Virus record (IMG/VR): IMGVR_UViG_3300025671_000680
Span: 1 to 20,726 of that record
Strand: one strand, 5' to 3'
Length of the DNA: 20,726 nt
DNA from: a virus
Part shown: positions 6,068-14,825 of the stretch, piece after piece
Numbering within the stretch: position 1 is the first letter of the stretch
Layout: each line of letters begins with the position of its first letter
Made by a program: the position numbers and the translations under genes
Notes under the pieces: model-generated
The model's input: only the letters and a program-made list of their open reading frames with translations
The model's database searches: none
Told to the model about the DNA's origin: nothing

Positions 6068-6733
6068 TTACAGCAAGCCGGCCCATTTCGCGACCTGCAT
6101 CAGCGTCGATGGCGGCGAGCGCCGGGCCTCGAGCGCCGCCTGGCACGCCGCGATGGTGTACTCGCGGATCTCCGCTGGGCTGCGGCCGGCGACGACCAGG
6201 AGCGCGGCAGCTGCGAGCTGTGGCTCGAGGAGCCGGTGCTGGCCGGCGGCCGCAGCGCCGGCGACGAAGGCGCCAGCCACGCGTTTCTGCAACTCCGTGT
6301 CGATCCCCCGGACCCCCTCTTCGTTATCGCCAGCAGCATTGTCGTCGTCCGGCTCGGCTATCACAGCCGGCACCGGCGCGTAAATCTCCTCGCGGCTCGG
6401 CACCGGCGTCTCGGCGCCCTGGTAGAGCACCTGCCACCTCGGCGTCAGCCCGCGTCCTTTGCGCTTGATATGCCTCGGGTACGGCTTGTAGGCGAGCTTT
6501 CTGATGTAGCCCATATTCCGCAGCGCCGGCATGTAGCGCTCGACTGTTGCGCGGTGACAGCCTACATGCCGCGCCAGCGTCAGATAGCTGGGCCACGCAA
6601 TGCCGGCCGCATTGGTGTGGAGGCACAACGCCGCCAGGATCCGCAGCTGCGTCAGCGTCAGCGCTTCGTCTTGCACTGCGCGCGCCGGCAGCACGGAGTA
6701 GAGCCTGGTCGCTGGCTTCTCGGCGTCACTCAT
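6068..6733 (-). CDS. Winged-helix protein, replication-initiator (O-like) or regulator
   Basis: A 221-residue protein. Residues about 20-85 form a winged helix-turn-helix: ALTLTQLRILAALCLHTN, AWPSYLTLARHVGCHRATVE, RYMPALRNMGYIRKL. This arrangement, WPS...LA...G..R.TV.R....L...G.I, is typical of phage lambda O-type replication proteins and related DnaD/RepA-like initiators. A charged linker (120-150) leads to a helical C-terminus (AAALLVVAGRSPAEIREYTI). Its place two genes downstream of the primase-helicase and the iteron-like cluster suggests origin binding, but a transcription factor role is also possible. It starts with an ATGAGTGA overlap. Confidence 0.65.
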   Translation of the reverse strand: MSDAEKPATRLYSVLPARAVQDEALTLTQLRILAALCLHTNAAGIAWPSYLTLARHVGCHRATVERYMPALRNMGYIRKLAYKPYPRHIKRKGRGLTPRWQVLYQGAETPVPSREEIYAPVPAVIAEPDDDNAAGDNEEGVRGIDTELQKRVAGAFVAGAAAAGQHRLLEPQLAAAALLVVAGRSPAEIREYTIAACQAALEARRSPPSTLMQVAKWAGLL

Positions 6734-6878
6734 CGGCTAGCACCTCGCCGGAGCCCAGGCACACGTCGCACTCGACGCGCTCATCCCGCGTCTCACTAAC
6801 GCGGAACAGCACATAGCCGCGACCGGCGCACTCGCTGCATGCCTCATAGCCTGCCGGCTCCTCAGAACGGTATGTCAT
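6726..6878 (-). CDS. DnaJ-type zinc-finger small protein (50 aa)
   Basis: A 50-residue protein with two CxxCxGxG repeats, CSECAGRG (14-21) and CDVCLGSG (37-44), joined by a short beta-hairpin region. This is half of the DnaJ cysteine-rich domain, a format common in small phage proteins. It would bind one zinc ion and may contact proteins or nucleic acid. The start ATG overlaps the upstream gene by 17 bases. The longer open frame upstream is a shadow of that gene. Confidence 0.65.
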   Translation of the reverse strand: MTYRSEEPAGYEACSECAGRGYVLFRVSETRDERVECDVCLGSGEVLADE

Positions 6879-7365
6879 CAGATGGCAACTCGCGGACGCG
6901 ATGCCCTTCCGGGCCGGGTGAACCAAACACCTTGAATGTCTCGAGCACGATTGCAGGCAGGTGCTGGATCGCCGTGTCCACATGCACGCGGACAGCGCCC
7001 TCTGGCAGGTCTGGCAGGCTGGCACCTGGCTGGTACAGAGCCACCGCAAAGCCATCCGGGTGCATACCGACGAACACCGCCTCGCCAGGCGGCAGCTGCC
7101 CCGTGCCCCGCGCGGCCGCGTCGAGGGCTATCCATGCGCGCCGCATGCCGCCGGCCGCCGCGCTGATGCCGGCCTGGTCGCCCGCCGCCAGTGCAGCGTT
7201 CAGCCGCTCGAGCTGCTGGTTGAACTTGGCGGCCAGATCTTGTCCTGCCGCGAGGCACAGCCTGTCAGCCGTGCCCCAGGCCGTCTCGATGCGATGCGCT
7301 ACCCGGTCTAGCTCACGCACCGCGACCTCAGCCGGCGGCGCAAATGGATCTTCATCTTGCCTCAT
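6862..7365 (-). CDS. Hypothetical phage protein, 167 aa
   Basis: The protein starts MRQDEDPFAPPAEVAVRELD with GGGGT seven to eleven bases upstream; a start 14 codons earlier is less likely. The first half is a long helical segment (RVAHRIETAWGTADRLCLAA to AGISAAAGGMRRAWIALDAA). The second half is a beta-rich domain (EAVFVGMHPDGFAVALYQPG, VRVHVDTAIQHLPAIVLETF). I do not recognise the family. Placement between the replication helicase and an O-like winged-helix gene suggests a replication or regulatory accessory role. Confidence 0.65.
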   Translation of the reverse strand: MRQDEDPFAPPAEVAVRELDRVAHRIETAWGTADRLCLAAGQDLAAKFNQQLERLNAALAAGDQAGISAAAGGMRRAWIALDAAARGTGQLPPGEAVFVGMHPDGFAVALYQPGASLPDLPEGAVRVHVDTAIQHLPAIVLETFKVFGSPGPEGHRVRELPSDDIPF

Positions 7366-7568
7366 ATGCTTACCCCACAGACAAAACGCGGACAGGGCTC
7401 CGGACAAGCGGACAACCCCCTAGAGGGGGTTTGTCCGTCCGCTTTTCCGCAGCTAGCCGTGCTTGTCCGCCCGCTTCTGTTGCTTCTGCTAAAACCCATG
7501 TTTTCTGCGGCTTTCAGCCCGGCGGACATGTCCGGACACACCCCTAAAACTTGTCCGCAGCGCCTCAT
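7362..7568 (-). CDS. Possible small protein read through the CGGACA repeats
   Basis: This 68-residue frame (MRRCGQVLGVCPDMSAGLKA...) starts in an ATGA overlap with the primase-helicase stop and ends in an ATGA overlap with the next start. Without it there would be a 196-bp gap in an otherwise continuous operon. The protein has six cysteines and no recognisable domain. It is read through an iteron-like cluster, so the frame may be open by chance. Exact coupling at both ends is its only real support. Confidence 0.4.
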   Translation of the reverse strand: MRRCGQVLGVCPDMSAGLKAAENMGFSRSNRSGRTSTASCGKADGQTPSRGLSACPEPCPRFVCGVSI

Positions 7569-7620
7569 TCGGCACCCCTGCCGGACAACCCTCCGGACAA
7601 CCCTCCGGACAACTGTCCGG
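7389..7620. repeat. Cluster of CGGACA motifs (iteron- or operator-like)
   Basis: Thirteen copies of CGGACA or its complement occur in 232 bp: 7389, 7401, 7409, 7432, 7463 (as TTGTCCG), 7523, 7529, 7533, 7551, 7582, 7594, 7606 and 7614 (positions approximate to one base). Fewer than one would be expected by chance. The copies at 7409-7437 form a near-perfect 13-bp inverted repeat (CGGACAACCCCCT against its complement, one bulged T). TGTCCGGACA at 7529-7538 is a 10-bp palindrome. The last copies are a 12-bp direct repeat (CCGGACAACCCT) coding the LSGGLSGG tail of the helicase. Confidence 0.8.
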
Positions 7621-9433
7621 CACGCTGACCGCGAACTACCACCTGCTTGTTACGCTCTAGAGTTGCTATGCCGCGCCGCCAGGCTCGCTGCTGCGACTCG
7701 CCGCTACCGCCGCCCAGAGCTGCCAGCTCGTCCGCCACGGCGCGCCACTCCTCGAGCGTGCAGCTCGCCCCAGGCCAGCCCGGAGCGTCGTCGCGACCCC
7801 ATCGCACGACTGCCAGCGCCAGCGCCTGCAGCAGCTTGTCTTGCGTCGTGCTGCCGCCTGGCGCAGCTGCCAGGACCGGCACCAGGCTGGCCTCCAGGTC
7901 GTCTAGGCAGTGCACCTGAAACTCGACGCGCTGGAGCTCGAACCACATGGGCAGCAGCTCCTCTGCGTCCTTCTGCTTGTGGTGCAACACCTCGGCGTGC
8001 ATCTCGTGCTTGCGCACCTGCAGGCTTGTATCGAGCGCGCCGTGCAGTGCTGAGCTGCCACGCAGCCCCCGCGCCGCGTCCTTGCCCTGGTGCGCGACGA
8101 CCAGCTGTGTCGCGTCTAGGTGCAGGCGCACCTGGTCGATGGCGCGGATGGCGGCTCCCATGTCTTCGGCGCTGTTCTCGTCGCCGCGCAGGCATCTCGC
8201 GAGCGTGTCGTACACGACGGCCTTGACGTCGCGCCCTTGGCGCAGGGCATCGACTGTCTGGATCAGCGCGTCGGCGCCGCCGTCGTCCAGCGGCACTGCC
8301 TCCTCGACGAGCAGGAACTGCGCGTCTGCGATCTGCAAGTTATGGTGCTTGTGCCAGGCCGCCGCCCGCGCCCGCAGGCCCGCAACACCTTCACCCGCGA
8401 TGTAGACAACCAGGCCTGGGTCTACATCTCGCCCGTTCCAGCTGCGCGCGTGGGCGATGTGCAGCATCAGGTCGAGCGCCAGGAACGTCTTAAAGCTGCC
8501 CGGCGGCCCCCAGATGGCTGCCGTCGCGCGCGCTGGCAAGATGCCTGGCACAAGCCATTGCGCCGGCGGTCGCTGCATGAGCTGCTCAAGGGACAGCGCG
8601 CGCAGCGGCAGGCTGCTGGTGATGTCGGCTGCGTTCACCTCGGCGGTCGCGCAGAGCTGCAGCAGCTGCTCGCGCGTGCCACCTGCAACTATCCAGTCGT
8701 GCGCGTCGCCCTTTTCGGGCAAACCTGGCAGACGCACGAGCCGCACTTCGGCCGCAACGCCGGCCAGTGTCTGCATCACCTGCGCCGCGTGCGCCTCGCC
8801 GGCCACGTCGTTGTCGGGCAGGACAAAGCAGCGCCTGCCTGCGAAATACTGCGCCAGCTCTGGCTTCCATGCTTTCGCGCCGCCAGGGTTCGTCGTCGCG
8901 AGCACGCCGAGCTGCTCGAGCGCGGCGCATGCCTTCTCGCCCTCCGCTATAAACAGGTCCGCGTCCGCCTGCGCGACGATCTTGTTAAGCCGCCACGGAA
9001 TAGGCCGGTAGCTCGGGTCTGCGGTCGGCTTGCGCCCATCCGCCAGCGCCTGGGAAAAGGTCTTGGTGCCGTCCGCCAGGTCGCGACGCGTGACCCGCAG
9101 GTGCACGCTGCCGTCGGCGCGTAAGTAGTCATAGGTCGTGACGCGCGGCGCAACGGGCAGCGGCCGCAGCGTCCAGGCTGCAGCGTCTGCCTCGTCGATC
9201 TCGGCGCCAAACTCGTCGCGCAGCCACTCTGCGGGGTTCGCCTTCGGGAAGTGGTGGCGGATCAGATCCGCGACACCACCGCCGACGTTTAACTCGTGGT
9301 CAAACCAGGTGCCGGCCTGCACGTCGATCTTGCGGGCGTTTTGGCTGCCCCAAAAAATCTCGCGCTCAGTGCGCCTGGAAGGCTCACCCCAAAAGTGCTT
9401 GGCGACGGGCAGCGCATAGTGCTGCCAGTCCAT
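7565..9433 (-). CDS. Toprim primase-like / RepA-type AAA helicase fusion
   Basis: A 622-residue protein starting MDWQHYALPVAKHFWGEPSR. The N-terminal part (1-100) resembles the DNA-binding part of phage primases. A Toprim domain follows, with DLFIAEGEK (159-167) and CFVLPDNDVAG (202-212). A RecA-like ATPase of the RepA/AAA_25 type then has Walker A GPPGSFKT (309-316), Walker B VVYDTLARC around Asp409, and VVAHQGKDAARGLRGSSALH typical of hexameric RepA-like helicases. It would unwind phage DNA and possibly prime it. The classical zinc-binding cysteines of DnaG are absent from the N-terminus. The start is 3 bases after the upstream stop. The C-terminal GQLSGGLSGGLSG is encoded by CGGACA repeats. 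Confidence 0.9.
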   Translation of the reverse strand: MDWQHYALPVAKHFWGEPSRRTEREIFWGSQNARKIDVQAGTWFDHELNVGGGVADLIRHHFPKANPAEWLRDEFGAEIDEADAAAWTLRPLPVAPRVTTYDYLRADGSVHLRVTRRDLADGTKTFSQALADGRKPTADPSYRPIPWRLNKIVAQADADLFIAEGEKACAALEQLGVLATTNPGGAKAWKPELAQYFAGRRCFVLPDNDVAGEAHAAQVMQTLAGVAAEVRLVRLPGLPEKGDAHDWIVAGGTREQLLQLCATAEVNAADITSSLPLRALSLEQLMQRPPAQWLVPGILPARATAAIWGPPGSFKTFLALDLMLHIAHARSWNGRDVDPGLVVYIAGEGVAGLRARAAAWHKHHNLQIADAQFLLVEEAVPLDDGGADALIQTVDALRQGRDVKAVVYDTLARCLRGDENSAEDMGAAIRAIDQVRLHLDATQLVVAHQGKDAARGLRGSSALHGALDTSLQVRKHEMHAEVLHHKQKDAEELLPMWFELQRVEFQVHCLDDLEASLVPVLAAAPGGSTTQDKLLQALALAVVRWGRDDAPGWPGASCTLEEWRAVADELAALGGGSGESQQRAWRRGIATLERNKQVVVRGQRAGQLSGGLSGGLSGRGAE

Positions 9434-9435
9434 CG

Positions 9436-9966
9436 CTAGAAAATCTCGCCGGCTCCAGCGTCGCCACCTGCCGGCGCCGCGCAGCGCCAACGCTTGAGGT
9501 TGCTTTTCCAGTCAAGCCAGCCGCGTATTTCCTCCGGCTTGCTCGGCGCGTCTACCCAGGCCTCGACCGCCAGCACTGGCATGTGGTTGTTGTTTTTGCC
9601 CGATTTAATGACTTCCTTGACGCTGGCGACGACGACCTTGCCGGCGTTATCCTTCGCGCCCTTTAACACGTCGCGCTGCAGGCCTTGGATCGCGTTGCGG
9701 TTCATCTGACCGATGCTGCGCCAGTGCACCCAGCAGTCGCTTGGCGCGCCGTCAGCTGCCGCCAGCCACACGTCAACCTGAAACGCCGGCTTGTAATCTT
9801 CGCCGGGCCGCTGGATGCTCGTGCCCGCCACTGCTGCCCACACGAAGTCGCTGTTGCCTTGCGCAAGCATCCCCCAGCCCGTCTTTAGGCTGCCCCAGTC
9901 AATCGTTAGCCGCTTGAGCTCAATGTCGCTCTGCTCGCGCTCGCCTTCGCCTGCATATTCAAACAT
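9436..9966 (-). CDS. Phage protein of unknown function beside primase and nuclease
   Basis: A 176-residue protein starting MFEYAGEGEREQSDIELKRL, with GAGGAG well placed before the ATG. It is rich in aromatic and beta-strand residues (FVWAAVAGTS, FQVDVWLAAADG, CWVHWRSIGQMNRNAI, GKVVVASVKEVI, MPVLAVEAWVD) and ends in a low-complexity Gly/Ala tail. A single-stranded-DNA-binding protein or recombination cofactor would fit both the fold-like pattern and the position between a helicase and a Holliday-resolvase-like nuclease, but this is inference. It overlaps the nuclease gene by 8 bases. Confidence 0.7.
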   Translation of the reverse strand: MFEYAGEGEREQSDIELKRLTIDWGSLKTGWGMLAQGNSDFVWAAVAGTSIQRPGEDYKPAFQVDVWLAAADGAPSDCWVHWRSIGQMNRNAIQGLQRDVLKGAKDNAGKVVVASVKEVIKSGKNNNHMPVLAVEAWVDAPSKPEEIRGWLDWKSNLKRWRCAAPAGGDAGAGEIF

Positions 9967-10524: not shown

Positions 10525-10636
10525 TCTGCCCCGACATTTTTATTAAAAAAAAGTACCGTTAGGGTATTGCAAAGGTACCGCCACGGTATTACGTTGCAAG
10601 GGTAAGTTTGCAGTACCCAAACGGTGGAGGAGAGAT
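10525..10636. promoter_or_regulatory. Divergent control region with repeated TACC-N-GGTA operators
   Basis: This 112-bp, AT-richer gap separates leftward replication genes from rightward early genes. It holds three 13-bp inverted-repeat sites: TACCGTTAGGGTA (10554-10566), TACCGCCACGGTA (10576-10588, perfect), and the weaker TACCCAAACGGTG (10614-10626), which touches the ardA ribosome binding site. A direct repeat TTGCAARGGTA recurs at 10567 and 10594. A run of A/T (10539-10552) lies next to the leftward start. No consensus -35/-10 pair at ideal spacing is clear on either strand. Confidence 0.6.
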
Positions 10637-11116
10637 ATGGAAGCCAGACTCTGGGTAACGACCTACGCGAAGTACAATGCCGGCACGCTGATCGGGAAGT
10701 GGTTTGATCTTGACGAGTACGCGAGCCGGGACGAGTTCCTGGCGGCTGCGACGGCTTATGTCGCAGAAGCGGACCCCGAGCTGATGTTCTGCGACTACGA
10801 AGGGTTCCCGGCTGCCTGGTACTGCGAAAGCAGTGCGCCGCCGGACGAGCTGTGGGACTGGCTGGAAATGAGCGATGAGGATAAGGCGCTCGCCAAGCTG
10901 CTCGCAGAAGTCGGCATCAACATGGAGCCAGGCGACGCGATGATCTTCGAAGGAAGCGCCGAGAACTACGCGGCCGAGCTAGTGGCCGATTGCTACGACC
11001 TGCCAGAGATTGCTGAGCGGTACTTCGACTACGAGGCCTTCGCTCGCGACTTGGTGCTAGGGGGCGACATAGTTGAGCTGGCGCCTGATGTTTGGCTAAC
11101 AAACCCGAACGGCTAG
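10637..11116 (+). CDS. ardA: ArdA antirestriction protein
   Basis: A 159-residue protein near the usual 160-170 of ArdA. The N-terminus EARLWVTTYAKYNAGTLIGK with WFDLDEYASRDEFLAAA, then DPELMFCDYEGFPAAWYCES, is the standard ArdA signature. It is strongly acidic, as expected for a protein that mimics B-form DNA and blocks type I restriction enzymes (and sometimes modification). As first gene of the rightward block it would be made early after entry and protect incoming phage DNA. It has a strong GGAGGAGAG site and directly borders the operator cluster, so its expression is probably controlled from there. Confidence 0.93.
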   Translation: MEARLWVTTYAKYNAGTLIGKWFDLDEYASRDEFLAAATAYVAEADPELMFCDYEGFPAAWYCESSAPPDELWDWLEMSDEDKALAKLLAEVGINMEPGDAMIFEGSAENYAAELVADCYDLPEIAERYFDYEAFARDLVLGGDIVELAPDVWLTNPNG

Positions 11117-13578: not shown

Positions 13579-13587
13579 GGCGCAGAA

Positions 13588-13680
13588 ATGCTGAGCAAAA
13601 CTGCACGCAGAATTGCTGAGCAAAACTGCACGCAGAATTGCTGAGCAAAACTGCACGCAGAATTGCTGAGCAACACTGCG
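13588..13680 (+). repeat. Tandem 25-bp direct repeats with internal palindromes
   Basis: Three perfect head-to-tail copies of a 25-bp unit lie at 13591-13615, 13616-13640 and 13641-13665, followed by a 15-bp partial copy with one mismatch. Each unit contains the 10-bp inverted repeat CTGCACGCAG, and each junction forms the perfect 11-bp palindrome TTGCTGAGCAA (13613, 13638, 13663; a one-mismatch version at 13588). They lie between a possible winged-helix gene and the integrase. They could be integrase arm-type sites, excisionase sites or operators. Confidence 0.9.
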
Positions 13681-13715: not shown

Positions 13716-14825
13716 ATGAAGTTGAAACTGCCATATCTGGTCGAGGAGCAAGCAGGCGGTCGGACCTATCACTATGTGCGCAAGGGCAAAGGCCCGCGCG
13801 TCGCCATCACCGCGCAGCCTGGGACGGCTGAGTTTGGACGCCAGTACGCAGACGCGCTAAACGCGCTGTCGCATGGTCAGGCGCAGGTCAGCGCGCCGCG
13901 CTTCCAGTGGCGACACCTTGTTAGTGCTTACCTAAACTCTGCTGCGGTCCAGCGGCTGCATCCCGAGACGCGCCGGGTGAGGCGCCGCGTGCTCGAGCAG
14001 TTCCTGCACGACTGGGCCGCCAAGGACTACCGCAAGCTCGAGGCGCTGGACGTGATCGAGGTTCTGGAGCAGAAGGCGCGGCGACCGGAAGCTGCGATCA
14101 CGCGCCTAAAGGCTATACGCGCAGTGCTTAATTACGCTGTCAGGCGCGAGCTGGTTGCAACGAATGTCGCGTTGAGCGAGAAGGTCGCCGCCTATGCGCG
14201 AGAGGAGCTGCGGCGCGACAGCGGCGGGCATAAGGCCTGGACGCGCGAGCTGATTGCTCGCTTTTACAAGCACTATGAGCTGGGCGAGCGTGAGCACTTG
14301 CTGATGACCCTCCTGCTGTACACAGGCTGCCGCATCAGTGACGCAGCGATGCTGGGGCCGCAGCACGAGCGCGCCGGGTTCCTGGTCTGGAACGAGACGA
14401 AGGGTCGCGGCCGCTACGCGAAAGACGCGACTGCCGTGCCGATCCTGCCGCCCTTGCGCGCGGCTATCGACGCCGCGCCGACCGGCGACATGGTGTACAT
14501 GGTGACGGAGCTCGGCTTGAGCTATTCCGTCAAAGGCCTGGCGCAGTGGTTCGTCAAGCGTTGCCGCGAGGCCGGCATACCGGCCGGCTACACAGCGCAT
14601 GGCGTGCGCAAGGCAGCAGCGACGATGATCGCGGAGGCCGGCGCTAGCGAGGACGAGCTGATGAGCATGTTCGGCTGGCAGTCCAGCAAGCAGGCGCGCG
14701 TCTACACGCGCACAGCAAACAGGCAGCGTCTAGCAGCGAGCGCTGCGCGCCGGCTGTACCAAGAAACATTGCAGGAACAGGGCGCCCCTAGCCCTGCCCC
14801 TAACCGCAAGGTATATAATGAGTAA
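13716..14825 (+). CDS. int: Tyrosine recombinase / phage integrase
   Basis: A 369-residue integrase. Catalytic residues are Arg206 (TGCRISDA), probable Lys229 or Lys236 in the beta-hairpin, His295 and Arg298 (HGVRKAAAT), Trp321 in the usual H/W position, and nucleophile Tyr330 (RVYTRTANR). The N-terminal 60 residues are a likely arm-binding domain, followed by a core-binding domain at about 65-165. The ATG at 13716, preceded by AGAGAGG, was chosen. The longer frame starting at 13638 runs through the 25-bp repeats and is unlikely. It would insert the phage into the host chromosome; the attP site is not identified but should be close. Its 3' end contains a consensus -10 box. Confidence 0.93.
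   Translation: MKLKLPYLVEEQAGGRTYHYVRKGKGPRVAITAQPGTAEFGRQYADALNALSHGQAQVSAPRFQWRHLVSAYLNSAAVQRLHPETRRVRRRVLEQFLHDWAAKDYRKLEALDVIEVLEQKARRPEAAITRLKAIRAVLNYAVRRELVATNVALSEKVAAYAREELRRDSGGHKAWTRELIARFYKHYELGEREHLLMTLLLYTGCRISDAAMLGPQHERAGFLVWNETKGRGRYAKDATAVPILPPLRAAIDAAPTGDMVYMVTELGLSYSVKGLAQWFVKRCREAGIPAGYTAHGVRKAAATMIAEAGASEDELMSMFGWQSSKQARVYTRTANRQRLAASAARRLYQETLQEQGAPSPAPNRKVYNE
14814..14819 (+). promoter_or_regulatory. Consensus -10 box inside the 3' end of int
   Basis: TATAAT lies in the codons for the last residues of the integrase, in an otherwise GC-rich gene. Transcription starting about seven bases later would begin at about 14826, exactly where the 5' hairpin of the structured element starts. 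No good -35 box is visible at 17 bases (GCCCTG at 14791), so the promoter may be weak or need an activator. The evidence is a consensus match and position only. Confidence 0.4.

Follow-up and report, generated by a model that had tools for sequence, protein, structure and literature searches.

The P4 alpha protein carries a primase, an SF3-type helicase and a winged helix that binds iterons on one polypeptide, and the iterons in question are the type I iterons of ori and crr. In RSF1010 the replication functions are divided among RepA, RepB′ and RepC, with the initiator (RepC) and the primase as separate proteins. The SaPI Rep protein binds an origin that lies directly downstream of its own gene, and does so via its C-terminal domain (PMC7581432). 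PICI origins also lie immediately 3′ of rep, an organisation stated to be known from no other bacterial replicon (PMC6092414), and the SCCmec protein Cch2 is an initiator helicase that binds direct repeats downstream of its own operon (PMC7581432).

We analysed a 20.7-kb IMG/VR virus record (its entire length is referred to as the window), which encodes terminase, portal, integrase, recombination genes and a replication module. At the 3′ end of its primase-helicase (PH) gene lies a dense array of CGGACA hexamers. From sequence comparisons and structural models, we conclude that this array is probably a phage replication origin, and that it is probably recognised by the PH through the protein's own C-terminal winged helix.

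Like SaPI and PICI origins, the array consists of iterons immediately 3′ of the gene for an initiator-helicase, and the iteron sequence is specific to the lineage. Recognition by the C-terminal domain, which has been reported for SaPI Rep, would also apply to PH, judging by covariation. The placement of iterons around an AT-rich stretch is seen only in part; the gap in the window has a GC content of 0.55. However, the PH helicase core has a RecA fold (RSF1010 RepA/Twinkle/DnaB-like, AAA_25) and is fused to a TOPRIM domain, unlike the SaPI-type (non-RecA) initiator helicase, and PH arrays occur on ordinary phages, prophages and some plasmids. The 3′ iteron organisation that was published as unique to PICIs (PMC6092414) is therefore not unique to them, and extends to RecA-type helicases.

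P4 alpha resembles PH in uniting primase, helicase and a C-terminal winged helix in one protein, but differs in having an SF3 rather than a RepA-type (RecA-fold) helicase. RSF1010 RepA (1g8y, 1olo) is the solved structure closest to the PH helicase core, whereas the three functions that are separate in RSF1010 are apparently fused in PH. Cch2 belongs to another helicase family, and a separate complex, CCPol-MP, does the priming. As in lambda O-type systems, a phage iteron array is found at a replication gene, and the window also encodes an O-like protein; however, the iterons are 3′ of PH, other genes and more than 0.6 kb separate them from the O-like gene, and most loci with an array lack that gene. 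We found no earlier description of arrays 3′ of RepA/Twinkle-type PHs in the mainly open-access literature.

The CGGACA array and the primase-helicase

The array (positions 7389-7619) consists of exactly 13 copies of CGGACA/TGTCCG, eight on the plus strand (7389, 7401, 7409, 7523, 7533, 7582, 7594 and 7606) and five on the minus strand (7432, 7464, 7529, 7552 and 7614). The whole window contains 19 copies and whole-window shuffles average 10.9, corresponding to about 0.12 expected per 232 bp, so that an earlier note on this DNA, which had counted thirteen motifs where about 0.1 was expected, was accurate. A hexamer scan of the window gave nothing approaching this density, whether for a different hexamer or in a different 232-bp stretch. 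The copies form two blocks, one distal to the PH gene (7389-7469, five copies) and one proximal to it (7523-7619, eight copies), the latter overlapping the 3′ coding tail. The gap between the blocks (7470-7522) has a GC content of 0.55 versus 0.64 for the window, and the 30-mer with the lowest GC content in the intergenic region (0.37, at 7475) falls within it; the gap is a candidate unwinding element. The near-perfect hairpin with CGGACA ends that the same note described at 7409-7437 is also real, as its arms (7409-7420 and 7426-7437) are 92% complementary and the strand folds with z = -5.5. The population variants L003-L007 (99.8% identical) have no SNPs within the array, which is uninformative because only about one would be expected. 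GC skew had been proposed as a check on an origin, but the array is unmarked in it: the cumulative minimum, near 10.3 kb, is away from the array and coincides with a switch in gene direction. We rejected skew as origin evidence, since it tracks gene direction.

Four copies (7582, 7594, 7606 and 7614) lie within the final codons of the PH gene and nine are intergenic. A 12-bp repeat (TRF, 7576-7613) codes for LSGGLSGGLSG in the PH tail. The claim that the array reaches into this coding tail is thus correct, but its extension to the start of the next gene is not borne out. That gene (6862-7365, minus strand) encodes a 167-aa protein of no family, whose homologues are directly downstream of the array in 35 of 104 loci. 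Its start is most likely the ATG at 7365, preceded by GGGG at a distance of a few bases, and not the TTG at 7407, which means that the array does not truly extend into the gene. A 68-aa frame at 7362-7568, which had also been placed under the array, is unsupported.

The PH gene (7565-9490, minus strand) encodes 641 aa from the listed TTG, although an ATG near residue 20 is the likelier start. The protein comprises a TOPRIM domain, a RepA/RecA-fold helicase and a predicted C-terminal winged helix. AAA_25 is its sole Pfam match, at the RecA-fold core (residues 305-472, positions 8075-8578, E 3.1e-37). A phmmer search of the window PH against the PDB gave no match. A profile search matched the core to RSF1010 RepA (1g8y, E 6.7e-15), and VIA aligned it with 1olo (Z 23.6, 207 residues, 2.1 Å); the nearest structures are RSF1010 RepA, DnaB and Twinkle. 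The AlphaFold model (mean pLDDT 86.9) contains a confident C-terminal wHTH, with helices at 549-564, 579-588 and 597-613, and strands at 576-578 and 617-620/628-631. This domain (residues 549-620, positions 7631-7846) is the candidate iteron-binding domain, based on the model and on covariation. Its relationships are generic: Pfam gave nothing above the curated cut-off, or stray families only, for the C-terminal domains tested; Foldseek returned winged-helix matches with E 0.02 or worse and no specific relative; and VIA gave generic winged-helix matches with Z up to 7.0. Primase, helicase and winged helix thus appear, from sequence and model, to be joined in one polypeptide. Residues 622-641 (7568-7627), which include the iteron-encoded LSGGLSGGLSG, have pLDDT below 50 and are predicted to be disordered beyond the last folded domain. 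The suggestion that the iterons, rather than the needs of the protein, shaped this tail gains support from this, and from the presence of at least two copies inside the PH coding tail in 27 of 104 relatives with arrays.

Arrays at the same position in relatives

Homologous loci were collected from IMG/VR and GTDB genome scans via conserved helicase motifs, which limits their reach, and yielded 155 non-redundant PH loci with enough 3′ sequence. We scored an array where a hexamer at the PH 3′ end had at least six copies and exceeded its count in every one of 40 dinucleotide shuffles. By this measure, 104 of the 155 relatives carry a significant array at the 3′ end of the PH gene, while at least six copies were seen in only 8 of 463 control windows and at 20 of 622 other ORF ends. 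In 101 of the 155 loci, no hexamer cluster within 2.5 kb on either side is stronger than the one at the PH 3′ end. The position is kept while the hexamer changes with lineage, and includes CGGACA, GGGACA, GGTACA, GGTAAC, GGGTCA, GGTTCA, CGGATA, GTTGCA and others. The earlier view that iterons beside a replication gene mark an origin is supported by this pattern.

The nearest contigs belong to the window's own population (99.8%). Much more distant are the PHs of the isolate phages Idiomarinaceae 1N2-2, Alteromonas XX1924 and Salicola CGphi29, which are 27-28% identical to that of the window and have arrays in the same place, with 11 copies of GGTACA, 12 of GGTTCA and 6 of GGGACA, respectively. 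Hosts or bins of array-bearing loci include Alphaproteobacteria, Lysobacter, Rhodobacteraceae, Aerococcus and Solobacterium. Named isolates with arrays include Rhizobium phages 16-3 and RHph_Y3_1 and Roseobacter CRP-406, and arrays are also found in plasmids of Caenibius, Methylobacterium and K. pneumoniae (pKp_Goe_795-4). Arrays are in two blocks in 57 of the 104 loci, and the gap is AT-richer in 82%. Gene ends with an array show deeper AT-rich dips than those without (p ~1e-13), but the AT-rich minimum falls within the array span in only 53 of 104 loci and within the largest gap in 25. The genes downstream of the array vary by lineage, and PH is the only neighbour common to all.

No significant 3′ array was detected in 51 of the 155 relatives by exact hexamer counting, which overlooks degenerate arrays; a few have clusters elsewhere. 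Records without a 3′ array include Nocardia NTR1, Gordonia NHagos, Mycobacterium KayaCho, Caulobacter GB2A, Kosakonia Kc166B, Pantoea AAM37 and the plasmids pPNAP03 and p2_510. In some loci (L334, at +850 to +1052 after the helicase stop, L147 and L202) the strongest hexamer cluster is further downstream, one example being the six copies of CGGACA in Vibrio phage 1.210, and L217 (-206 to -80 of the helicase stop), L246 and L060 have strong clusters away from the helicase 3′ end. Separately, an exact scan for three TTGTCCG at 12-bp spacing, which hit 34 IMG/VR contigs, was discarded, as beyond the window's population it found only repeats without PH.

A family A polymerase was present in none of 21 array-bearing records tested, many of which are fragments; this fits use of the host polymerase. 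The actinophages NTR1, NHagos and KayaCho (L332, L340 and L335), which have no 3′ array, carry a related PH, and in NTR1 and NHagos a DNA polymerase gene adjoins it. These actinophages suggest that PHs of the self-initiator form occur where a phage depends on its host for a polymerase.

Covariation and the reader of the hexamer

If PH itself reads the array, the hexamer would be expected to follow the DNA-binding domain of PH. We compared motif similarity with the similarity of C-terminal domains, accounting for similarity in the N-terminal part and in the AAA core, and obtained partial correlations of 0.27 (94 loci), 0.40 (50 loci) and 0.36 (44 loci), with 0 of 300 permutations for each, although Mantel permutations remove phylogeny only in part. 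The 14 columns with the best association in the largest family all fall in the C-terminal region, between residues 636 and 671 of the PH of locus L251. In the modelled wHTH they occupy or adjoin helix 62-69 and loop 70-76, i.e. the HTH helix and the loop that follows it. Particular residues at these positions accompany particular hexamers. AERTVRNM.NPSY (or AERTI, KERTI) occurs with AGGGTCA in ten loci, SEASAKQY.KPSV with GGTAAC, SEASAKVYIKPSAT with GGGAAC, KQ(H/A).KPSE with GGTAC, KQH.KPSE with CGGTACT, and AKRQLQPT/AKKQLQPS with CGGATA. Such loci provide dozens of natural protein-DNA specificity pairs for the study of initiator-origin co-evolution, for example GGTAAC versus GGGAAC in closely related proteins. 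A small HTH gene just upstream of PH, present in 40 of 50 loci of the largest family, does not covary with the motif (r -0.03 versus 0.47 for the C-terminus).

The earlier note had favoured another binder, the 221-aa O-like HTH_36 protein (6068-6733, minus strand), which matches phage replication-initiation families and could bind the origin and recruit PH, as in lambda O-type systems. Of the 31 GGACA-type loci, 14 encode it, and in the small clade of the window itself (n = 13) it is inseparable from PH, as the motif tracks the O-like protein at 0.38 versus 0.36 for the PH C-terminus. However, among the 73 array loci that have 2.3 kb or more of downstream sequence, just 14 contain it and the other 59 do not; the GGACA-type loci L063, L212, L222, L256 and L011 are among those that lack it. 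In the wider families, moreover, the motif follows the PH C-terminus. This protein is therefore not supported as the general binder, and we consider such a role unlikely. Since PH carries a primase half, and T7-type primases read trinucleotides, the array might instead contain recognition or single-strand initiation sites for the N-terminal TOPRIM primase. This is very unlikely, because motif similarity does not correlate with the N-terminal part once the C-terminus is controlled for (r is negative), and the copies are tightly clustered in both orientations.

An operator, or a regulatory or packaging site of another kind with no part in replication initiation, could be imagined from the location of the array between two co-directional genes and from its strong hairpin. 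It is, however, improbable: no promoter- or terminator-like match was found at the array, the downstream genes differ by lineage while PH is the constant neighbour, and the association with a replication gene extends across phages, prophages and plasmids. Finally, a 12-bp tandem repeat in coding sequence makes up part of the array, as might result from chance or from low-complexity coding sequence, but an explanation on these lines is hardly credible given that 9 of the 13 copies are non-coding, that they occur in both orientations with irregular spacing, and that 104 of 155 relatives have an array in the same place.

We thus favour an origin read by PH. Copies of PH would bind the CGGACA hexamers via their own C-terminal winged helix (residues ~549-620) and assemble on the two iteron blocks, and an AT-richer stretch between or beside the blocks would be opened. 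PH would then load as RepA-type hexamers, with the TOPRIM domain priming and a host polymerase relied upon for synthesis. Somewhat less firmly, we propose that a large superfamily of phage and prophage RepA/Twinkle-type PHs are self-contained initiators, in which the C-terminal winged helix is exchangeable and reads an array of hexamers, specific to the lineage, directly behind its own gene, and that these form a hyper-diversified specificity code that can be read from sequence. Origins and initiators could then be predicted in a very large set of phages.

Other features of the window

Between the 167-aa and O-like genes, positions 6726-7055 encode a protein of 109 aa whose zinc motif, CXXCXGXG, is of the DnaJ type (PF00684, below cut-off). 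At 13581-13679, a 25-bp unit (CGCAGAATTGCTGAGCAAAACTGCA) is repeated in tandem in four near-perfect copies, which are directly upstream of, or overlap, the annotated start of the tyrosine integrase, whose real start is probably the ATG near 13717; the repeats are possibly integrase arm sites or operators. An AT-rich divergent intergenic region at 10530-10640 has the lowest GC content of the window and a 22-bp repeat (10549-10590). Gene direction and GC skew switch there, and it is a probable promoter or regulatory region.
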